A stretch of DNA of 60,521 bases from positions 1 through 60,521 of the forward strand of contig LFTI01000087.1 in assembly GCA_001513285.1 (NCBI GenBank), written 5' to 3'. Shown one piece after another: positions 192 through 60,521 of this stretch. A model generated the notes under the pieces. That model was given only the letters and a program-made list of their open reading frames with translations. It was not told the DNA's origin and made no database searches. This DNA comes from Rikenellaceae bacterium DTU049 (GTDB lineage: Bacteria > Bacteroidota > Bacteroidia > Bacteroidales > DTU049). A program made the position numbers and the translations under genes. The first letter of the stretch is position 1, and the number at the start of each line of letters is the position of its first letter.

Positions 192-3143
192 TTAATATAT
201 AACTAATACTTTCCCAATTAAATTATGAAATTCTCCTTTTTCTAAATCAGCAAATTTAATGACATAAACATAACTATCTGATTTTACTAATTGACCATTG
301 AATGTACCATCCCACCCTTGATTTATATCTATAGTATAGAATAATTGTTTTCCCCATCTATCATAAATTCTCATTTCAAAAGTATTCGGATTTATGTTAG
401 TCCCCTTAATATTAAATAATTCATTTAAATCGTTTCCATTTGGTGTAAATGCATTAGGAATATAAAAGGTACTAGCCTCTTCTTTAATAATTATATTTGC
501 TCCCACTGTATCTACACATCCATATTCGTCTGATACTAATAAAATAACATGGTATTCACCAGGATTTGTATATGAATATGTAGGAGAATATTCTGTTGAT
601 ATATTTCCATCACCAAAATCCCATTCATAAAAACTCGCACCAGTAGAATAGTTTTCAAAATATATTATTGGATCTTCAATAGTTGTGATTTGTGGTTTAG
701 GTGCAAAATTTGCTTGAGGCATAGGGGCTTCTGTCAGCGTTATAGAAATAGATGAGCTACATCCATTAGCATCGATAACTGTTAAATTATAATTTCCAGC
801 AGAAATATTATTTAAATTTCCACTATTCGCTCCATTAGACCATTGATAAACATATGGAGGAATACCACCAGTTACATTGGTTATTATATTCCCATCTGAT
901 TGTCCACAATGTGATTGTGTAGTGGTATAATGAATTGTTGGCAATGGATGAACAGTTATTGTAACTTCTGCTGTGCCAGTACAACCTTCATTAGTAGTTC
1001 CTGTAACAGAATACGTTGTAGATGTAGATGGTGCTATAGTAATATTATTTCCCGTGAAATTATTACTCCAAACAAAAGATGTGACAGGTATATCAGAATT
1101 AGCTATCAATGTTGTACTTGAGCCAATACAAATCGATAATTGTGAAGGATCAATACTTACCGTCGGCAATGGATTTACCGTTACACTTATAGTGGCAGTG
1201 CCTGTACATCCTGCATTTGTCCCTGTTACTGTATATGTCGTCGTTGCATTTGGTGTTACTGTTATACTTGCTGTGCTGTCTCCTGTGCTCCAACTATATG
1301 AACTTGCTCCACTTGCCGTTAATACTGAGGTGTCACCTGAACATATTGACGATGGTGTAGCTGTAACATTAATTGTTGGTGAAGAACTCACTGTAATTGT
1401 AACAGTTGCAGTATTTGAACATCCTACTCCATTTGTTCCCGTTACAGTATATGTCGTCGTTGCATTTGGTGTTACTGTTATACTTGCTGTGCTGTCTCCT
1501 GTGCTCCAACTATATGTACTAGCTCCGCTGCCATTTAAAACTATAGAATTTCCAGTGCATATTTGAGGATTGTTTGGAGTTATTTGTACAGAGATGTCAT
1601 TAATGTTTAAAAAAGTACTTATAGAATCTTCCATACAAGATTCAGGTCTTGTAAAATACATTGTTAAATTATATGTACCTGAAGATTGATAACTATGTGA
1701 AATATTTACTCCATTTGCAGTATTACCATCACCAAAATCCCAATGTATATTGTAAATATGAGAAGATGTATCAGCTATAAATGTTATTAATTGGTTATTG
1801 CAAATAGTATCATGGAATAAGCTATATGGTATAGTATCATTATTAATTACAATAGATAGCTCTATTTGTAGAGCTTTAACATTGGCTCCAGCCAAGTAAC
1901 CATAAGAATCTACATTACCAAAGCCATAAACTATAGCTGTAAATCCGCTATCCGAATCTAGAATATGAGTTCCTTGATCAATATTTATTCTTATGTATGA
2001 AAATAAATTATTTGATGGTACAGTTGACCATCCAGTTAAAGTACTACCATCTAAAGTAACCAAGTTAGTATTGGCTGTTTTAGTAATAATATTAGTATAA
2101 AATTGATTAATTACACTAGTACTAAAAGCTTGAAAAACAATATTATCAATAAATTGCTCAACAGGAGATAAAATTATCATAAATGGATCAGAAGTAACAT
2201 TATCGCAAGATGTACCTTGGCTATATTGAGCAACAGATATAGGATTATTTGATGTAATAAAAGAAGCTTGACTTAAAGAAGTTTCATAATATTGGCCAGC
2301 ATTTAAATTAATTGGTGTTCCACCATTTATCTGAATTGATGTAGAATTTTCCATTGCTAATATTCTAAATTGGTCACTACTACGAGTCATTAGAGGTGAA
2401 GTAATATAATTTTTACCCCATGTTTTTAAAGGTAGCATTTGTTCATATAGGTGATCACAATATGAACATGTGGTTGGTACATTAGCACATTTATTACCAG
2501 CAAATACTGCGAAATTATTACAAGAATTTAGATTTGTTGCTTTTACAGTGGAACCAGTGAGATCGCCATAAGATTGGACCATATAAACTTCTCCAGCATT
2601 TAATGTAATGTCGAATGGTACATTTGCTCCTACACCTCCTATTACAGCAGCTTTAGGTATTATTTGTATAGATGTATTATTTTCTATACCAATAATTATA
2701 AATTCAGATGGATTATTTGATAATACTGTATATGACATTATCATATATTGGTCACCAAGAGCTTGTACTGGCAAGACTAAAGTGGCATCTGAGGAAGCAT
2801 TTCTTTGATTAGCAGCATATACTGCTATAGGATTGTTAGATACTACATGAACACCTTTATTTAAAACCACATTACTATTCTCAATATTTGGATTTTGAGC
2901 AGCAGGTATTTGAATTCCTATCGATGCGTTAGCTCCAACAGTGAAATCTTGGCTCCATCCACTACCAGGCATACTTACAGTACCTGTTGCACCTTGTGGA
3001 GATGTAATATAGATAATACAATTGGTAGGAACATTATAATTTTGCATAAAAGATACCCAAAAATCATTTCCTAAGGTAGAATATTGTGCATTTAAATTTA
3101 AAAAATTTAATAAAAATGCAAATAACAAAAGAAATTTTTTCAT
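192..3143 (-). CDS. Secreted adhesin-like protein: IgGFc-binding-like N-terminus, PKD/Ig-like repeats, T9SS type-B (gliding motility-associated) C-terminal domain
   Basis: Signal peptide; FDFGDG-type PKD motifs; C-terminus IPNAFTPNGNDLNELF...IYDRWGKQLF...WDGTFNG. Confidence 0.85.
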   Translation of the reverse strand: MKKFLLLFAFLLNFLNLNAQYSTLGNDFWVSFMQNYNVPTNCIIYITSPQGATGTVSMPGSGWSQDFTVGANASIGIQIPAAQNPNIENSNVVLNKGVHVVSNNPIAVYAANQRNASSDATLVLPVQALGDQYMIMSYTVLSNNPSEFIIIGIENNTSIQIIPKAAVIGGVGANVPFDITLNAGEVYMVQSYGDLTGSTVKATNLNSCNNFAVFAGNKCANVPTTCSYCDHLYEQMLPLKTWGKNYITSPLMTRSSDQFRILAMENSTSIQINGGTPINLNAGQYYETSLSQASFITSNNPISVAQYSQGTSCDNVTSDPFMIILSPVEQFIDNIVFQAFSTSVINQFYTNIITKTANTNLVTLDGSTLTGWSTVPSNNLFSYIRINIDQGTHILDSDSGFTAIVYGFGNVDSYGYLAGANVKALQIELSIVINNDTIPYSLFHDTICNNQLITFIADTSSHIYNIHWDFGDGNTANGVNISHSYQSSGTYNLTMYFTRPESCMEDSISTFLNINDISVQITPNNPQICTGNSIVLNGSGASTYSWSTGDSTASITVTPNATTTYTVTGTNGVGCSNTATVTITVSSSPTINVTATPSSICSGDTSVLTASGASSYSWSTGDSTASITVTPNATTTYTVTGTNAGCTGTATISVTVNPLPTVSIDPSQLSICIGSSTTLIANSDIPVTSFVWSNNFTGNNITIAPSTSTTYSVTGTTNEGCTGTAEVTITVHPLPTIHYTTTQSHCGQSDGNIITNVTGGIPPYVYQWSNGANSGNLNNISAGNYNLTVIDANGCSSSISITLTEAPMPQANFAPKPQITTIEDPIIYFENYSTGASFYEWDFGDGNISTEYSPTYSYTNPGEYHVILLVSDEYGCVDTVGANIIIKEEASTFYIPNAFTPNGNDLNELFNIKGTNINPNTFEMRIYDRWGKQLFYTIDINQGWDGTFNGQLVKSDSYVYVIKFADLEKGEFHNLIGKVLVIY
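1231..1300. repeat. 70-bp direct repeat, copy 1 (identical to 1447..1516)
   Basis: GTATATGTCGTCGTTGCATTTGGTGTTACTGTTATACTTGCTGTGCTGTCTCCTGTGCTCCAACTATATG. Confidence 0.9.
1447..1516. repeat. 70-bp direct repeat, copy 2
   Basis: Same 70 nt as 1231..1300; encodes the YSWSTGDSTASITVTPNATTTYT repeat. Confidence 0.9.
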
Positions 3144-3281: not shown

Positions 3282-5630
3282 TTAATGAATAACATTAATA
3301 ACTCCTCTATAAATTTTATCTTTCATATTTAAAGTTGTAAATTTTATTACATAGATATAGGTATTAGAATTTATTTCTCTATCATTTTTGTCAGCAATAT
3401 TGCCATCCCACGGCTTATTAATATCAGTAGTATGAAACATTAATTTACCCGTTTTGCTATAGATAAAAATTTCATAACTTTCTGTATCTATCCCCTGTAT
3501 AAATGGAGTAAAATAATCATTTAGATTATCTCTATTTGGTGTAAAGGCATTAGGTATAAATATTTGAAAATTCTCAATAACAACGATTGAATCTTCATAT
3601 ACGGATGTGCAATTATATTGATCTGTAGCATACAAAGTAACTACAAAAGTGCCATCATTTGTATATCTATGAGTTGGATTAGCTTCTTCGCTATAAGTGC
3701 CATCACCAAAATCATATAAATAATTTGTAGCTCCTATAGTATAATTATAAAATTCAATAGGTTCACCATCCATATACCAAGTATAAACACTTGGAGTAAA
3801 TCTAGCATTAGGTCCAGACCAATAGGGAACATTGATGCTAGCTTCTTGAGTACATAAATCATCTGTTATAGTCACGAAATAAGTACCACTTTGCAAATTA
3901 TATAATTCATTAGTATCTAAAATAGAGTTATGACTCCAATGATAAGAAATAGGGAATAAATTACCAGTAACGTTTATAATAATTGTACCATCTCGATTTC
4001 CACAATGTTCTGGAGAAGATTGTGTTGTAAAAGTAAAAGGTGGCTTAGTTTCAATGAAGGTTTGCCCAACAGTTCTACAACCATTAGCATCGGTTACAGT
4101 TACAAAATATACCCCACCACTTAGCTCAGTAATAGTTTGTGTAGTTGCTGGAGGAATAGTATTCCATAAATATTGATATGGTGGAGTACCAGTCAAATTA
4201 GTGATTTCTGCTAATCCATTATTGGCATTACAATAAGCTGGTTGAGTATTTATGTCAAAGCTAGGTAGAGGATTTACAGTAATAGTAACTGTGGCAGATG
4301 AACTACAATTTGTTCCAAGGAAACCTGTTACAGTATATGTAGTAGTTTGATTAGGTATAATCATTAAATTTGCACTATTGCTACCATTACTCCAATGATA
4401 ATTATCTGCACCAGTTACGTGTAGATATGCTGTATCACCAATGCAAATTGCAGTATCATTAACAACAAGTTGTGGATTGGTTAATACTGTTACGATAGCA
4501 GTTGCACTGTTTGTGCAACCATGATTATCTGTTCCTGTAACAGAATATGTGGTAGTAGTTGTTGGATTTACTTGAATAGTATTAGTATTTTGTCCATTGC
4601 TCCAGCTGTAATTTGTAGCTCCTTGTGCAGATAAAATAGCTGTATCTCCTAGACATATAGTTTGATTATTTACAGTGATAGTAGGCAAGGAATAAATATT
4701 TATAGTAATTGAATTTGAATCAGTACAACCCTCAAGACTAGTACCAGTAACGCTAAATGTAGTTTGTTGATTAATAATTGGATTGATAGTTTGAGTATTT
4801 TGCCCATTTGACCACAAATAACTATTAGCTCCGTTAGCGGTAATATCGACTGAAGAACCTTCACATACGGTAGAAGGATTGGCTATAATAGTAATATTAG
4901 GTAAAGGATTTACTACAATAGTAGCTGTAGCACTAGCAGTACATCCTAAAGAACTAGTACCTGTAACTGTATAAATAGTAGTTGTAGTAGGATTCAAATT
5001 TAATGAAAATTGATTGCTACCATTATTCCATTGATAGCCAATGGCGTCGCCAGTTACTGAAATTGTACCAGTTTCACCATTACAAATTGTATCATTAGTA
5101 GTCGAAATAGTTGGACTACTTGCTATTAAAATAAATATTGATAAAGTAGAATAGCATCCATTGGGTGCCGTGCCTGTAACTTGAAAAAGTGAAGAAGTAT
5201 CAACAGAAATTATTATTTGATTTGTATTATCGCCAGTATTCCAATTGTAATTTGTTCCTGGAATATCAGAACTAACAGTTATGGTATCATTACCGCCAAT
5301 ATCACAAAAAACAGTTGTAGTAGCTGAATAAGATAGATTAGGTTTAGGTAAAACTGTTATCGTTACTGTCGCAGAAGCAGTTTCACTAGCTGGAGATGTT
5401 CCTGTAACTGTGTAAGTAGTTGTAAGTGTAGGAGATACATTAATAGAATTTGTAGTACTGTCATTAGACCATAAATATGTAGTGCCAGGAATATTACTGT
5501 TTGCATTCAAACTAATAATATCGCCATTACAAATAGATGTGTCACTCGGTGAAATGCTTACTACCAATTGCCCATAAGTAAAACTTATGTTAGTTAAAAA
5601 TAAATAAAATAAGACTAAATAATTCTTCAT
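3282..5630 (-). CDS. Secreted Ig-like/SprB-repeat/PKD protein with T9SS type-B C-terminal domain
   Basis: Repeated YSVTGT/YTVTGT modules; LWNT...GVYFVTVTDANGC SprB-like repeats; IPNAFTPNRDNLNDYF C-terminus. Confidence 0.85.
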   Translation of the reverse strand: MKNYLVLFYLFLTNISFTYGQLVVSISPSDTSICNGDIISLNANSNIPGTTYLWSNDSTTNSINVSPTLTTTYTVTGTSPASETASATVTITVLPKPNLSYSATTTVFCDIGGNDTITVSSDIPGTNYNWNTGDNTNQIIISVDTSSLFQVTGTAPNGCYSTLSIFILIASSPTISTTNDTICNGETGTISVTGDAIGYQWNNGSNQFSLNLNPTTTTIYTVTGTSSLGCTASATATIVVNPLPNITIIANPSTVCEGSSVDITANGANSYLWSNGQNTQTINPIINQQTTFSVTGTSLEGCTDSNSITINIYSLPTITVNNQTICLGDTAILSAQGATNYSWSNGQNTNTIQVNPTTTTTYSVTGTDNHGCTNSATAIVTVLTNPQLVVNDTAICIGDTAYLHVTGADNYHWSNGSNSANLMIIPNQTTTYTVTGFLGTNCSSSATVTITVNPLPSFDINTQPAYCNANNGLAEITNLTGTPPYQYLWNTIPPATTQTITELSGGVYFVTVTDANGCRTVGQTFIETKPPFTFTTQSSPEHCGNRDGTIIINVTGNLFPISYHWSHNSILDTNELYNLQSGTYFVTITDDLCTQEASINVPYWSGPNARFTPSVYTWYMDGEPIEFYNYTIGATNYLYDFGDGTYSEEANPTHRYTNDGTFVVTLYATDQYNCTSVYEDSIVVIENFQIFIPNAFTPNRDNLNDYFTPFIQGIDTESYEIFIYSKTGKLMFHTTDINKPWDGNIADKNDREINSNTYIYVIKFTTLNMKDKIYRGVINVIH

Positions 5631-5645
5631 TTATTAAAAATTAAA

Positions 5646-8393
5646 TCATTTTACAACTGTAATTGAACCTTTATATACTTTATTAGGATTGTTTGGTCCA
5701 TTTCCTGTAAATAAAACATAATAATATGTACCACCTGGCTGGTCTTTAGCATCCCAAGTATTATCATAACCATTAGCTTCATAAACAGTATTTCCCCATC
5801 TATTTAAAATAGTAAGTTCAGAATAAGGATATTTATCAATATTTTCAATATAAAATACATCATTTATGCCATCACTATTAGGAGTAATTACATTAGGGAT
5901 TTTTAATATATCATCTAATAAGACCACATCATAATAACTAGTATCTGAGCATCCCCATCCATTAAATGCAACTAGCGTGATAGTGTATTCACCTTCATTC
6001 ATATATGAATGAGATACATAATCTATAGTAGACGTTGTAGAATCTCCAAAATCCCATAATATATGAGTATCTCCATTACTTTCATTATAACATTGAATAG
6101 TGTAGGTAGGATCATTACTTGCATATATTATCGTTGGATATATATATCCATTAGCATTTGGTCTAGGATAAACTGTTATTAAATCTTCATAATGAGCTGT
6201 AGTATCACAACCAAATTCATTGGTTACAGTAAGCCAAACATCTATATTCCCTGGTGTATTAAATTTATGTAAAGGATTATAAATAGTATCACCAAAACTC
6301 CATAAATATTTATTAGTAGGAAAATATTCATAATTAGTTTCAACAAATTGTACATATAGTGGTTGACAACCAATGGTAGGTTCTGCCATAATATTCACAG
6401 GTGGTAAGTCATGAAGTTCAATTAGAGAAATACTATCATTAACATAACAACCATAATCATCATAAACGTATATTGTATAATTACCTTTTGGTAGACTATC
6501 GAAAATATTTAAGTTAGAATTGATATTATTAGGCAAGAGTGTATAATTATAAGGTGGTGTGCCACCATTAGCGTTTATCATTATTATACCCGTTGAATCA
6601 TGCTCACACCAAATATCAACTTTATCTAAATTCACATATATTGGTGGATTACTAGCAACATTTACGCTATCACTCACACTGCAGCCGCCTTCATCTGTTA
6701 TTGTAACACTATAAGTACCCACTCCTACCATTATTGAATCAATTGGAATATTTGTAATAGTATCTCGATTTGTAGACCAATGAAAATTATATGGAGGCAT
6801 ACCATTATTTCCCCAAGCTATTATTACTCCATTTGTCATACCTTGGCATAAAACTGTATCCCCTACAATATTCATATTTAATGATGGAGCAGAAGTCATT
6901 AGTTCTGGTGGAAATATAGAATCATGAAATCCTGCTATTTCCCATGTATCATCCATCCATGTCAAAGCAAAATCAGTTATATGCAAGGTATCATCTAGAA
7001 AAGGACCGAAATGAAAACTAAAATTAGCTTTATCAGCTGATAAATTTTGTTGTTGTCCACTAAAACATGCTTCATTAACTTCATCTATATCTACACATAA
7101 ATGAGGTAAATCATTTATTGCTTGCTTTATTAAATTTAAATCAATATTAAGAGTAAAATCCAAACCAGTAATACCAAAATTAAGAACTATACTATCCCAT
7201 ACATGATTATTGAATTCATTTTCCATAAAATGTAATATTGGTCCAGTAGATAAACTATCCAGTCCGAAACAAGGCCATAAAATATTCAGATTATTACCAA
7301 CTTTGAAAGTAATTGTATCATTTATGCCACTTTGAACAATGTTATTATTAGTATCAACTTCTTCATATTGAACAGGTGTTGGGAAATGAAAAGTAGTATA
7401 TAAAGTAGGGCAAAAAGTTAAATCTTGATGTAAATAATGATTAGTAAATAAGCTTGCTTGATCTATTAAGGTATAATCTAAGCTAATATTAATATTAGCA
7501 TCATTAACAATTTGAATTGTACCGCTCAAAAGATCAATAAAGTCATTAATAGCATCTGCAGTAGACCCTCCTATTATTTCTCCCATAAATTGGATAAATT
7601 GTATTATATCTAGTCCTAGAGTCATGTAATAATCTTGTCCTTTAGCTATTAAGCATTTATTAGGTAATATGTAATCATTGTATGAAGCAATATATGGTAT
7701 ATCAGCCCATAGAGATAGACCTATTCCACCTATATCATTAATAATAAGTGGGATAACTTGACTTTGACATATATCAGGATAATCATTTACAATACATGGA
7801 TAAGTGGCAATCCCAGTATAAGTATTTAACTCAATTAATGTTAAGGAATCATAGGGGACACCCACATTAAAAATATTTATTGGAGTACAACCTCCGACAC
7901 ATAACTGTCCACTTAAATCTATATTTGCGCCAAATGAAAAATTCATTCCTATAATTCCTTCTTCAGGGAAATGAGGATTTAAGTAAGCACTTGGCAAAAC
8001 TGTATAATCGGAGTTTATAGTAGCCCATTGACCTGGAATGATTGTACCATAATCAGGAAATGTGAGAGTAATATCAACTGGATAATTAATATCTACCCAT
8101 CCATTATTAAATCCACTAGCATAATATGTTAGTGCCATAGATAAATATGCATTTAAATCAAATTCTGCTCCCCAGTCTCCTAAAATTCCTAGATCTTCAA
8201 TGTGCCCAAAAGTTTGGTTTTCGCTAAAAGTATAATTGAAAATATCTTGGTGTATATTCAAACTCCAAGTACTACCATTAGGCCCCCACATATATTGATG
8301 ATTCAAAGCCCAATCGATAGGGTGATGTACTGTATATGTTTGACAAAAAATATTTATTGGCAAAATAAATAATAAAATATATATTTTTCTCAT
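5646..8393 (-). CDS. Secreted SprB-repeat/PKD protein with T9SS type-B C-terminal domain
   Basis: SYSVTITDEGGCSVSD, ILWDFGDSTTST, IPNVITPNSDGINDVFYIEN...LNRWGNTVYEANGYDNTWDAK. Confidence 0.85.
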   Translation of the reverse strand: MRKIYILLFILPINIFCQTYTVHHPIDWALNHQYMWGPNGSTWSLNIHQDIFNYTFSENQTFGHIEDLGILGDWGAEFDLNAYLSMALTYYASGFNNGWVDINYPVDITLTFPDYGTIIPGQWATINSDYTVLPSAYLNPHFPEEGIIGMNFSFGANIDLSGQLCVGGCTPINIFNVGVPYDSLTLIELNTYTGIATYPCIVNDYPDICQSQVIPLIINDIGGIGLSLWADIPYIASYNDYILPNKCLIAKGQDYYMTLGLDIIQFIQFMGEIIGGSTADAINDFIDLLSGTIQIVNDANINISLDYTLIDQASLFTNHYLHQDLTFCPTLYTTFHFPTPVQYEEVDTNNNIVQSGINDTITFKVGNNLNILWPCFGLDSLSTGPILHFMENEFNNHVWDSIVLNFGITGLDFTLNIDLNLIKQAINDLPHLCVDIDEVNEACFSGQQQNLSADKANFSFHFGPFLDDTLHITDFALTWMDDTWEIAGFHDSIFPPELMTSAPSLNMNIVGDTVLCQGMTNGVIIAWGNNGMPPYNFHWSTNRDTITNIPIDSIMVGVGTYSVTITDEGGCSVSDSVNVASNPPIYVNLDKVDIWCEHDSTGIIMINANGGTPPYNYTLLPNNINSNLNIFDSLPKGNYTIYVYDDYGCYVNDSISLIELHDLPPVNIMAEPTIGCQPLYVQFVETNYEYFPTNKYLWSFGDTIYNPLHKFNTPGNIDVWLTVTNEFGCDTTAHYEDLITVYPRPNANGYIYPTIIYASNDPTYTIQCYNESNGDTHILWDFGDSTTSTIDYVSHSYMNEGEYTITLVAFNGWGCSDTSYYDVVLLDDILKIPNVITPNSDGINDVFYIENIDKYPYSELTILNRWGNTVYEANGYDNTWDAKDQPGGTYYYVLFTGNGPNNPNKVYKGSITVVK

Positions 8394-8407: not shown

Positions 8408-8887
8408 TTAATTTTTAATTTCTAAAGTTTTAAATGATTCTGTTAGATAGGTGAAAAAGATTTCATCTATTTCATTGGGATATGCCGCTGTTAATATTAC
8501 TATATGTGAGTCATCGCCTGTAAAATATGTTGTTCTAATAATATTAATTTTTTTATCACCTTCATTTATCAAAATATATCCTTTTAATAATATTCCACTT
8601 TTATAATCTATCTGATAATTATTTTCAATTAATAGTGGAATGATATTATTTTTTTGAAAAAAATTATTTGTATCAAAATTCTTTTTAAAATTTTCAAAAT
8701 TTTTATTTGGAAGAATTTTTATTTGAATATTAATAAATCCTAATGAATCTTGATAATTATAAATATCATTTGTTGCAGAATTATCTATATATTCAATTCC
8801 CTCTGGTGGATTATAATTAATAGTTTGACTAAATAAAATTTGAGAAAAAATTAATAAAATGCTAATTAATAAAAATTTATTATTCAT
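8408..8887 (-). CDS. Small secreted hypothetical protein
   Basis: 159 aa ORF with N-terminal signal peptide, directly upstream of 5646..8393. Confidence 0.7.
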   Translation of the reverse strand: MNNKFLLISILLIFSQILFSQTINYNPPEGIEYIDNSATNDIYNYQDSLGFINIQIKILPNKNFENFKKNFDTNNFFQKNNIIPLLIENNYQIDYKSGILLKGYILINEGDKKINIIRTTYFTGDDSHIVILTAAYPNEIDEIFFTYLTESFKTLEIKN

Positions 8888-9079: not shown

Positions 9080-10087
9080 TTATGTTAGGTTTTCTATTGG
9101 TTTATTTCTAAGCTTAATATATTCGTACCATGCACGCCTATCTGACGCCGCTAAATTTAATATCCTCCCCACATCCTCTATTAATTTATTTAATAAATAC
9201 TTGTGCTTCACTATATACCACATTATATAACTCTGTAAATATTTCGTAGCTACTCCTCTAAACTGCTTGTCTATCCACTTCGCAAACCTTACTGTATGCT
9301 GTCTCACTGTATTTATGTTGTATGTATCATTCTGATCTTTCACTAGTTCTCTTTTTACTGTCTTACTCTTTAAATTCTTTGACCTAAATTTCTTGAATTC
9401 TTTCCTATCTTCTCCACATATAGTGCTACTTGTAGATACTTTTTTTCTTAATATCTTTTCTATTTTCACCTTCTTTATTTTATCAAAGCATATTAGATTG
9501 AATAGCATATTGCCACTTCTGTCTTTCATCGCTAGCACTGCCACATTGTGCTGCTTCTTCTCCTGAGCTATCAAATATTCTTCTTTGCTTTTATATCTTC
9601 TACCTTTTTCTGAATATTTCATCAGCAACTCTTCGAGTTCCATTATCCCAAAAAAGTTAACATTATCATCGAAGCTCCTCAATGCTGTCAATATTCTATG
9701 TCTCCATTCGAAACTTGTCGTTAGATCTATTCCTATTTCTTTAGCACATTGGCGTAAACTTTTTCCTTCGAGCATACAGAGAATGTAGTCCAGCATTAAT
9801 TCTTTTTTATGCAGATTGTAAACAAAAGTACCGGTTGTAACTCGGAAGTTTTTGCCACATTCTTTACATTGATAGAGCTGCTGACCTTGTTGATGACCAT
9901 TCTTTATAATGTTTATGCTCTCACATTTGGGACATTGTGGCGATACACTTTGAGCCTTGAGACCTTGGTAGTCTACTACATCTGCATCTTTTTGTTTTAA
10001 TAGGTAAAAAAGTCCATCGAGGAATGCTAAATGCTCTTGTTTGCCCATAGATAAATGTTCTACTAGATTATCAACTAATTGTTTCAT
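9080..10087 (-). mobile_element. IS1595-like transposase-family protein (copy 1), zinc ribbon + DDE-like domain, catalytic residues questionable
   Basis: CPKC..KNGHQQGQQLYQCKECGKNF zinc ribbon; TGTFVYN; SFEWRHRIL; FRGVATKYLQSYIMWY. Confidence 0.8.
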
Positions 10088-56946: not shown

Positions 56947-57114
56947 TAAAATTAAACAATTTTAATAGATTTGCAAAAATTATTGTTTATCATAATAAAC
57001 TTTTACAATTTTGAAATGTCTAATTAGTATAATGAATTTAGATATTTTGTTTTGCTACTTTAATTTTATGATTATTTTACTTAATTATAATACATGTTTA
57101 AAAAAAATTTTATA

Positions 57115-57122
57115 TAAATTTG
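57115..57122 (+). promoter_or_regulatory. TAnnTTTG element of adhesin module copy 1
   Basis: TAAATTTG in TTTTATATAAATTTGCAT, repeated at 60253. Confidence 0.6.
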
Positions 57123-57145
57123 CATAAAATATTAAATTATAAATT

Positions 57146-57556
57146 ATGAAAAAATTTCTTTTTATTTTAGTTTTAAATATGATTACACTTATATCATATT
57201 CTCAACAATTTGATTCTAGATTAGAGAAACATTTTGGCAGAGATAAATTGATTTATTGGCAAAAAAATTATCCAGATAGTCTAGGATATTACCAATTTGT
57301 AATAGATAATGCTGTATTGATAATGGATGAGAATGTTGCGAAACAAAGATTAGGTGGAGAGCAAGTAAGTGAAATAGAGATTCCAAATTTTGATGAAGCC
57401 ATTAAAAATCATAAACTTCTAGATATTTTTTCACTCGGCATAGAGTTAAAACCCGATACTTATCAATATATTAAAGTAAAAAATGAGCCATATTATTTAT
57501 ATGTAAAATCAAGCAATTATTTATGGAATAAATATCAAGCAGGAAAACAAAATTAA
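57146..57556 (+). CDS. Small secreted protein (module copy 1)
   Basis: Signal peptide; homologous to the partial ORF at 60279. Confidence 0.75.
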   Translation: MKKFLFILVLNMITLISYSQQFDSRLEKHFGRDKLIYWQKNYPDSLGYYQFVIDNAVLIMDENVAKQRLGGEQVSEIEIPNFDEAIKNHKLLDIFSLGIELKPDTYQYIKVKNEPYYLYVKSSNYLWNKYQAGKQN

Positions 57557-57562
57557 AACATT

Positions 57563-60196
57563 ATGAAAAGATTGAAATTATTTATATTATTTTCATTAAT
57601 AATATCGACGGCAATAGCTTTTGGACAAAACCCAACCATTAATTTAAATGCTAGTACACATAATACTGAAATAGAAGCTTGTGGATATTGGTTTTATGAT
57701 GATGGAGGTTCTGGTGGCAACTACTCTAATAATCAAGATAGATGGATAACTTTTTATTCTACTGATCCCACATATAATCACATAAAAATAGAATTCGCAT
57801 CTATGGATTTAGGTGCTGGTGATACATTAATAATATATGATGGACCTAATACAAGCTCACCAGTATTAATAAGGTATTCTCAAGCTAATCCATTAACACC
57901 AGCTAACTCTGCTGTTCAAGCCACTATAAATAATCCTGGAGGCAGACTAACTGTTAGATTCAAGGCTGATGGAACTGGTAATGCTGCTGGATGGAATTCT
58001 GCTATTGGATGTATTAAAATGTGCCAAAGAATCACACCAGTTCTAGATAGTATATTAACTAATCCACTACCTACACCTGATTATTATATTAATTTATGTG
58101 CATATGATACTCTCACTTTAGCTGTGAAAACTGATTCTTCCACCTTTCCAGATAATCACATCATTTATAATCAAACACTAGCAAATACTACTTTTGCATG
58201 GGATATGGGTGATGGTACTACACTATATGGACCAGTTGTTAGTTATCATTATAATATACCATCAGGATACAATGTTTCATTATCCATTATAGACACTATG
58301 GGCTGTACAAATACTTTATCTTTTAACTTCAGAGTTAGAATAAGTGATAATCCTATCACAGGTGTTAATCCTGTGCCAGACATATGTGAAGGTGATTCAA
58401 TAATATTAACTAGCGGAATAAATTTGGGGAATATCGTTGTAATAGATCCATTCACTAATGAAGTAACAGCACAAGGCATATATGATTCTATTACTTTTAT
58501 TCCTGATGGACCTAATTGTCCTACACAATGCTATGGCACACCAGTTAGTTTTGATCAATTCCCTCCAGGTGCTACTGTACAGCAAGCTACTGATATCGAG
58601 TCTATATGTATATTTATGGAGCATTCTTATGCTGGTGATTTATCTTTTAAAATTATCTGTCCTAATGGGCAAAGTGTTATTTTAGATTCATACGATCAAA
58701 GTGGTGGTAATTATTTAGGACAAGCTTACGATTATTCATCAGGATGCGATCCCAATAATCCACAAAATGCTCCTGGCACACCTTGGCTCTATTGTTGGTC
58801 AGAGGTCTCTAATTATTCTTATCAAGGTACATTAAATGTAGTTGATAGGTTAGGACCCTCACCTATCCCTGCTACTGATACAATAAACCATACTAATTAT
58901 TTGATACCAGAAAATCCTCTTAGTAGTCTCATAGGTTGTCCACTAAATGGTACTTGGAGTATAGAAATTTGTGATTTATGGGGAGCGGATAATGGTTGGG
59001 TTTTTGAGTGGATGCTTACTTTGTCTAGTAGCTCTGGTGTAGCTGGCTGGCAATATTCTGTTGAGGTAGACTCTCTCGACTGGGGCGGGCCTTATTTTTA
59101 TCCTATTAATGATACTACTGTTCTATTCAAACCAGATAGTAGTGGCACATACAGTTTCTTAGTAACAGCTTATGACGAATATGGTTGTATATATAATTCT
59201 AATATGCCTATAAATTTAAATGTAATACCAAATCCTGTTGTTGATTTAGGTGATGATACAATATTATGTAACGGCACTATATTTACACTAACTCCAGGAC
59301 CCGATTTTGATGAATATTATTGGAGCAATTATTCTACGACTCCTAGCATCACAATAGATAGTGCTGGTATTTATTCTGTGACAGCTATAAATTATAATAG
59401 CAGTGGGTCAGTATCATGCTCTAGTAGTGATACTATTGAAATAATGTATGTACCTGTAGCATCTGTAGATTTAGGTCCAGATTTATGTGTTACAGAAGGT
59501 CCAATAATTTTAGATGCTTCTCAACCAGGATCGGGTTTTACTTATATCTGGTCTACAGGAGCAAATACTCCTTCTATACAAGTAAATAATTTAGGGAATT
59601 ATTGGGTTAAAGTATATTATGGTGATTCAAATGCCTGCGGCGATGCAGATACAATATATGTAAAATTGCTACCTACTCCTATAATAAATCTCCCAGAAGA
59701 GATTACCGCATGTCATAATGATATTTTCGAATTATCAGCTCTACAACCTCACAATCCTAATTTATATACCTACAAATGGTCTATAGGGTTAAAAGAACCA
59801 GTATATTATGTTTATCGTCCACCTGTAGGAATTTATCCTATAGAAGTAATGGTAATAGGTTGCGATACTGCTACTGCTACTGTAAATATGACAATCGAAG
59901 ATTGCACTATTTACCCACTAGTTATAGTACCTACTGCCTTCACTCCATATAATTCTGATGGGGTCAATGATTATTTTCATATTGTAGCTGATGGCATAAA
60001 AAAAGAAAACTTCTCATTTAGAATTCTTAATAAATGGGGAGAAACTATTTTCTATACTAATGATCCCAGTTTTAGATGGGATGGTAGATATAGAGGTGAT
60101 ATATGTCCCCAAGATGTTTATACTTATAAGATTAGCTATACTACAGAGAATAATATTACAAAAGATGAATATGGATATTTTATTTTACTACATTAA
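57563..60196 (+). CDS. Large secreted protein: CUB-like, PKD, proprotein-convertase P-like domains and T9SS type-B C-terminus
   Basis: GGSGGNYSNNQDRWITFYS...DTLIIYDGP; GTWSIEICDLWGADNGWVFEWMLTL; VPTAFTPYNSDGVNDYFH...ILNKWGETIF...WDGRYRG. Confidence 0.85.
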   Translation: MKRLKLFILFSLIISTAIAFGQNPTINLNASTHNTEIEACGYWFYDDGGSGGNYSNNQDRWITFYSTDPTYNHIKIEFASMDLGAGDTLIIYDGPNTSSPVLIRYSQANPLTPANSAVQATINNPGGRLTVRFKADGTGNAAGWNSAIGCIKMCQRITPVLDSILTNPLPTPDYYINLCAYDTLTLAVKTDSSTFPDNHIIYNQTLANTTFAWDMGDGTTLYGPVVSYHYNIPSGYNVSLSIIDTMGCTNTLSFNFRVRISDNPITGVNPVPDICEGDSIILTSGINLGNIVVIDPFTNEVTAQGIYDSITFIPDGPNCPTQCYGTPVSFDQFPPGATVQQATDIESICIFMEHSYAGDLSFKIICPNGQSVILDSYDQSGGNYLGQAYDYSSGCDPNNPQNAPGTPWLYCWSEVSNYSYQGTLNVVDRLGPSPIPATDTINHTNYLIPENPLSSLIGCPLNGTWSIEICDLWGADNGWVFEWMLTLSSSSGVAGWQYSVEVDSLDWGGPYFYPINDTTVLFKPDSSGTYSFLVTAYDEYGCIYNSNMPINLNVIPNPVVDLGDDTILCNGTIFTLTPGPDFDEYYWSNYSTTPSITIDSAGIYSVTAINYNSSGSVSCSSSDTIEIMYVPVASVDLGPDLCVTEGPIILDASQPGSGFTYIWSTGANTPSIQVNNLGNYWVKVYYGDSNACGDADTIYVKLLPTPIINLPEEITACHNDIFELSALQPHNPNLYTYKWSIGLKEPVYYVYRPPVGIYPIEVMVIGCDTATATVNMTIEDCTIYPLVIVPTAFTPYNSDGVNDYFHIVADGIKKENFSFRILNKWGETIFYTNDPSFRWDGRYRGDICPQDVYTYKISYTTENNITKDEYGYFILLH

Positions 60197-60252
60197 ATTC
60201 CCATCTTATTTAGAATTTTTTTTAATTTATAACATTTTTAAAAAATTTTATA

Positions 60253-60260
60253 TAAATTTG
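60253..60260 (+). promoter_or_regulatory. TAnnTTTG element of adhesin module copy 2
   Basis: TAAATTTG in TTTTATATAAATTTGCAT. Confidence 0.6.
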
Positions 60261-60278
60261 CATTAAATATTAAATAAT

Positions 60279-60521
60279 ATGAAAAAAATTCTTTTGATTT
60301 TAGTTATAAATATGATTGCACATGTATCATATTCTCAACAATTTGATTCTAGATTAGAGCAACATTTTGGCAAAGATAAATTAATATTTTGGCAAAAAAA
60401 TTACCCTGATAGTTTAGGTTACTATGAGTTTGTAATAGATGATGCTTTTCTAATAATGGATGAAAAAATAGTAAGTGCTAGGCTGGGAGATGAAAAAGTA
60501 AAAGAAATAGAAATACCTAAC
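60279..60521 (+). CDS. Small secreted protein (module copy 2), truncated by the window end
   Basis: MKKILLILVINMIAHVSYSQQFDSRLEQHFGKDKLIFWQKNYPDSLGYYEFVIDDAFLIMDE..., similar to 57146..57556. Confidence 0.85.
   Translation, partial: MKKILLILVINMIAHVSYSQQFDSRLEQHFGKDKLIFWQKNYPDSLGYYEFVIDDAFLIMDEKIVSARLGDEKVKEIEIPN

Follow-up and report, generated by a model that had tools for sequence, protein, structure and literature searches.

Tandem modules at the contig end

The window analyzed here, 60,521 nucleotides in length, is the entire contig LFTI01000087.1 (contig C44 of genome G000, a 1.54-Mb, 64%-complete MAG). The contig stops partway through the second copy of a module of two genes (Table 1). 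In the first copy, a gene for a 136-aa Sec-secreted protein, S1, is followed after 6 nt by the gene for B1, an 877-aa T9SS cargo; the second copy begins with S2, which is open at the contig end and is 75% identical to S1 across the 81 aa available. The string TTTTATATAAATTTGCAT has exact matches at two positions, 57108 and 60246, compared to a chance expectation for the window of 0.25 with two mismatches allowed, and since the window has no others, the repeat period is approximately 3.13 kb. Inside each copy of the string lies TAAATTTG, which we take to match the -7 promoter consensus of Bacteroidota, TAnnTTTG.

Table 1. Positions of the module and second-locus features in the window
Feature	Position	Strand	Remarks
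TAAATTTG, putative promoter element of the first module	57115..57122	+	Inside TTTTATATAAATTTGCAT, 57108-57125
S1, 136-aa secreted companion	57146..57556	+	Signal peptide ends SYSQ; no lipobox, no T9SS C-terminal signal
B1, 877-aa T9SS type-B cargo	57563..60196	+	CHU_C, 48 bits; TIGR04131, 42.6 bits
B1 front end (CUB-like, PKD, P-domain)	57680..59062	+	Alignment A3; PKD_4, 49 bits; P_proprotein, 25 bits
B1 CHU_C/type-B T9SS sorting domain	59924..60178	+	Pfam PF13585, residues 788-872
TAAATTTG of the second module, putative promoter element	60253..60260	+	String at 60246-60263
S2, first 81 codons	60279..60521	+	Gene cut by contig end; rest of the gene predicted from synteny in G001 and from contig C7
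159-aa secreted protein, second locus	8408..8887	-	Companion family unrelated to S
915-aa CHU_C protein, partner of the 159-aa protein	5646..8393	-	N-terminus with MWGPNGSTW
782-aa CHU_C protein, further cargo	3282..5630	-	Second locus
983-aa IgGFc_binding/PKD/CHU_C protein, further cargo	192..3143	-	Second locus

The genus-mate G001 carries a complete S-B-S-B array with a spacing of 3131 nt and the same flanks as in the window: a histidine kinase and a response regulator on one side, and lipoprotein-like and asparaginase-like genes on the other (names assigned from sequence). Contig C7 of G000 terminates in a B protein whose C-terminal half shows 44% identity to B1, and this fragment adjoins downstream genes shared with the G001 array. 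On the basis of the G001 synteny and the end of C7, contig C44 very probably joins C7 and the S2 copy very probably continues into a CHU_C protein, as the original prediction had anticipated for the gene following 60279. The other parts of that prediction concerning the array, i.e., a tandem module with a repeated upstream string and a window that ends within the second copy, are borne out by the two occurrences of TTTTATATAAATTTGCAT, the similarity of S1 and S2, the open reading frame of S2 at the contig end, and the array of G001. Within G000, S is found only in the two modules, plus one weak partial match elsewhere, although roughly a dozen contigs encode proteins with B1 repeats or a CHU_C tail. 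Genome G003 has a single module. In G004, a 6.3-kb contig (C34; locus L043) has two upstream-type modules, with one B ORF interrupted, and the contig ends overlap by exactly 55 bases, which suggests a longer tandem array. An IS1595/ISXO2-like transposase gene that scores below the Pfam cut-off lies near the S-B array end on C7 (L042:12487-13503, minus strand).

B1 exceeds the curated cut-offs for TIGR04131 (42.6 versus 35 bits) and PF13585 (48 versus 27 bits), and its N-terminus, MKRLKLFILFSLIISTAIAFGQ, is a typical hydrophobic signal-like stretch as judged by eye. Of the domains first proposed for B1, the PKD, P-domain, and CHU_C assignments are supported by Pfam, while the CUB assignment falls below the cut-off (13 versus 21.4 bits); the description of B1 as a “giant” adhesin overstates a protein of 877 aa. 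We treat B as a bacterial CUB-PKD-P T9SS adhesin-like protein (PF18911, PF01483, and PF13585 or PF18962) with a tail of type B or type A.

The companion family and its linkage to B proteins

Neither Pfam nor NCBIfam has a match for S1, and the 46 members of alignment A2 have no consistent match in these databases to any described family, chaperone families included. A sequence profile search of the PDB with S returned CD8 alone, an implausible match at an E value of 0.02, and a Foldseek comparison of the S model with the PDB and with viral models gave nothing at E <= 0.001. These searches speak against a known family and agree with the earlier statement that the small protein has no recognized one; S is an undescribed family in the databases searched. 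We likewise rejected a mobile or viral origin, S being absent from the viral contigs and plasmids searched.

S bears a Sec-type signal peptide (judged by eye), which ends in Q in 98% of the A2 members. None of 60 S proteins has a lipobox Cys after the signal peptide, and neither Pfam nor NCBIfam gave a match to a type-A or type-B T9SS C-terminal domain in S. The conserved positions of A2 form the motif D-x-R-L...P-x-x-hydrophobic-x-Y-x-N/Q-F and a C-terminal motif, F/L-N...Y-x-I...L...Y. The AlphaFold2 model of S1, calculated from 11 sequences, is a confident alpha/beta fold (mean pLDDT, 87.5) with helices in residues 24-55, a C-terminal hairpin at 107-120, and a helix at 123-135.

A profile of 14 S members (A1) was searched against 295 Bacteroidales genomes and found strong homologs (E < 1e-10) in 34 of them. 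The full tally for A1, 54 genomes, includes weak matches, several to the signal peptide only, and several class-wide matches with E values above 1e-5, in which mainly the signal peptide was aligned, were discarded on inspection. Most of the genomes compared are MAGs; E values are per genome with limited candidates scored in each, and the tallies are lower bounds.

For linkage, we searched with an S-only profile and then inspected the next gene. In 52 of 53 separate S loci, the next gene encodes a protein with the CUB-PKD-P core, usually within 40 nt; at the single exception, L150, the gene after S encodes a large PKD protein that is truncated where the contig stops. The gap between S and B has a median of 8.5 nt over 60 pairs, being 60 nt or less in 56, and the two genes abut or overlap in 17. 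The arrangement is kept in the 34 Bacteroidales genomes with strong S matches and extends beyond the order to other families of the class in five genomes (G347, G343, G319, G528, and G666), the partner in G666 being a PKD cargo without the full core. The genes around the pair vary by family (a kinase gene, LepA, and ribosomal or enzyme genes), and so the linkage is not mere synteny. S is almost always encoded directly upstream of one class of large Bacteroidota surface protein, and the widespread unlinked occurrence that would have weakened the predicted tie to T9SS cargo was not seen. A search of open-licence papers found no conserved upstream companion gene described for CUB-PKD-P proteins; the “two tandem genes” reported for spreading (PMC9950754) are polysaccharide genes and not an S-B pair.

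At one locus S and B are a single protein. L108:1674-6926, in G087, is a single ORF of 1751 aa that has only one signal peptide. In it, S is joined directly to PKD in the order S domain, PKD, P-domain, repeats, and CHU_C, and core positions 1-150, the CUB part, are absent. S can thus be covalently built into a cargo, in a fusion known from one MAG contig; in the genus-mate G190, a contig edge retains just the first 24 residues, which are 96% identical. Two other S genes, both in G091, are truncated: at L124:6750-8906 the reading frame of a shortened S continues into the start of B, and at L125:6271-6567 S ends early, at 98 aa. These may reflect decay, phase variation, or assembly error. We rejected L124 as a true fusion, given that S is truncated and B retains an internal signal-like start.

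A shared operon does not require contact between S and B, and B often occurs without S, so S might act alone, say as a sensor or ligand-binding protein that is periplasmic or secreted, and merely be coregulated with the adhesin. We regard this as rather doubtful: B occurs without S, but an S without an adjacent B front end was almost never found (the 52 of 53 loci above). The S-PKD-P fusion of L108 and the joint conversion tract of S and the front end, described below, also speak against it.

Front end and tail of the cargo

The B front end is far commoner than S, being present in 185 of the 295 genomes at E <= 1e-10. Among 40 loci with a full-length front end and no S in the A1 search, a closer look found S in six (L189, L202, L204, L208, L213, and L214) and none in most of the others. 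In a tree of 98 front ends, a quick tree under a simple model, sequences with and without S are mixed, with 20 changes between the two states, at least 15 of them forced by well-supported branches. Within the family of the window, G006 has the order kinase-B without S, and G007 and G009-G011 have kinase-S-B; the orders S-B-B and B-S-B are found at L213 and L146, respectively. This repeated loss or gain, at least 15 to 20 changes, indicates that S is not essential, and we conclude that this front end is often accompanied by S but can do without it. PKD-P proteins of 531 to 640 aa without CUB were also found in three genomes (L241, L242, and L243, in G240, G144, and G031, respectively); their N-terminal region differs, and none has a CHU_C match.

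The common occurrence of S-less B genes also bears on the idea that S neutralizes B until export, as an inhibitor or immunity protein. A small secreted protein encoded upstream of an obligate large partner would fit such a role, and T9SS polymorphic toxins exist in Bacteroidota (PMC7073777). However, the scanned B proteins have no protease, nuclease, or other catalytic domain, and their C-terminal third varies independently of S, and we consider this role very improbable.

Tails could be read in 42 S-linked cargoes, of which 38 are type B and 4 are type A; the type-A label comes from a four-sequence profile, and a Pfam check in two cargoes, L115 and L122, confirmed Por_Secre_tail. Relatives without S also have both tail types (23 B and 7 A). 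A comparison of B1 with copy 2 of G005 showed mostly 90 to 100% nucleotide identity from the S gene through P, apart from one 200-column stretch at 68%. In the last third of the unit, identity falls to 48 to 66% between copies, compared to approximately 84 to 100% for the same copy across other species. This pattern is the mark of gene conversion of S and the front end, with the CTDs staying distinct. The divergence of S is also correlated more with that of the front end than with that of the tail (partial Spearman, 0.29 versus 0.12; 38 pairs, with kinship ignored), both correlations being weak. From the type-A partners, the conversion tract, the L108 fusion, and the divergence correlation, S tracks the cargo front end (CUB-PKD-P) rather than the type-B signal.

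The original prediction had cast S as a possible companion of type-B cargo as such, a reading that we rejected on account of the four type-A partners and the copy-specific CTDs. How far S might nonetheless be a type-B-specific accessory, such as a shuttle, an anchor, or a CTD chaperone that resembles or works with PorP/SprF, has to be weighed in its T9SS setting. The secretion system is present in this organism: SprA occurs in four genus-mates, although it was not found in the 64%-complete G000, and G000 has homologs of PorP/SprF on contigs other than those of the modules. Among the listed genes downstream of S-linked B, compared by N-terminal sequences, there is no PorP/SprF; these genes encode further S or B-like proteins or are unrelated. 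S itself has no NCBIfam match to TIGR03519 (PorP/SprF), and its model has short strands and is not a barrel, in line with the earlier view that the small proteins are not beta-barrels.

In Flavobacterium johnsoniae, type-B cargo needs a PorP/SprF-like protein encoded directly downstream, “orphan” type-B cargo without such an adjacent gene shares a distant shuttle, and the extrusion of orphan cargo from the translocon is still to be understood (PMC12618676). With no adjacent PorP/SprF gene and homologs elsewhere in the genome, the S-B modules are orphan cargo units with another kind of neighbor. The pairs SprB-SprF, Fjoh_3952-Fjoh_3951, and PG1035-PorP resemble S-B in that a cognate partner gene adjoins a CHU_C cargo (PMC12618676, PMC9143113). 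However, SprF-like proteins, at about 300 aa, form outer-membrane barrels, are encoded directly downstream, and act through the CTD, whereas S is a 115-aa soluble protein that is encoded upstream, is linked to the front end, and is found with type-A cargo as well. The preponderance of type-B tails among S-linked cargoes and the missing neighbor, whose place another factor could take, would suit a type-B accessory, but we find it unlikely: type-A partners exist, S-less relatives have both tails, tandem copies keep S together with the front end and not with the CTD, the small, soluble, alpha/beta S protein has no similarity to TIGR03519, and genuine PorP/SprF genes are present elsewhere in the genome.

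A proposed role for S, and other small upstream proteins

We think it reasonably likely that S is dedicated to binding the CUB-PKD-P front end of this class of T9SS surface proteins. The proposal draws on the tight two-gene unit with S first, the Sec signal without a T9SS signal, the linkage to the front end, and the fusion. S and B would be made together and both would enter the periplasm by Sec, where S could bind the front end and hold it soluble and correctly assembled, a protection that would last until the T9SS takes up the CTD of the cargo. It is about equally probable that S is an escort released in the periplasm and that it is a subunit that leaves with the folded cargo. A more specific version, which we put forward only tentatively, is that S, lacking a T9SS signal of its own, binds the folded front end and is carried with it through the SprA pore to become a noncovalent subunit of the adhesin; if so, the type IX system would be exporting a protein that has no signal for it, and the S-PKD-P fusion would represent the covalent form of this arrangement. 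A read-through fold of S and the front end, with the TAA stop read as a residue, gave no usable complex (pLDDT, 50; pTM, 0.29).

The periplasmic T9SS helper Skp/SkpA is, like S, small and Sec-exported, and a likeness in function can be supposed; SkpA, however, is a general translocon component encoded outside cargo operons (PMC10994853), whereas S is cargo specific. Work on T9SS cargo has so far centered on the C-terminal signal and the shuttles PorV and PorP/SprF, and the pre-export handling of such surface proteins is largely unstudied. Our finding points to a second layer, in which dedicated proteins would act before export by recognizing the opposite end of the cargo, and it gives an undescribed family a candidate function that is relevant to orphan type-B cargo with no adjacent sprF.

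The second adhesin locus of the window (8887 to 192) has the layout that was claimed for it, with a 159-aa secreted protein followed by three type-B proteins. The “same logic” attributed to the two loci holds for this arrangement and not for homology: the S profile gives the 159-aa protein a total of 1.9 bits, no real match, which rules out a single small-protein family for both loci. Elsewhere in the genus and family, homologs of the 159-aa protein occur in six more genomes, plus a weak match in G001, and in all six fetched loci the gene lies directly upstream of that for a CHU_C protein of about 915 aa with the shared N-terminus MWGPNGS..., the CHU_C end being cut off in L233. Since the window has at least two unrelated families of small proteins encoded upstream of their partners, a small companion encoded upstream may be a general principle.

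The cargo at 192-3143 of this locus has an IgGFc_binding domain (273 bits) alongside its PKD repeats, and an IS1595/ISXO2-like transposase gene adjoins the locus (9080-10087, minus strand). A third small secreted ORF, unrelated to the other two, of 129 aa and without a Pfam family, was observed in two genomes of one genus (L240:938-1324 and L239:3221-3610, in G087 and G190). A gap of 13 nt separates it from the downstream gene, which encodes a PKD-P protein without CUB that has a CHU_C tail in L240 and is a split ORF in L239.
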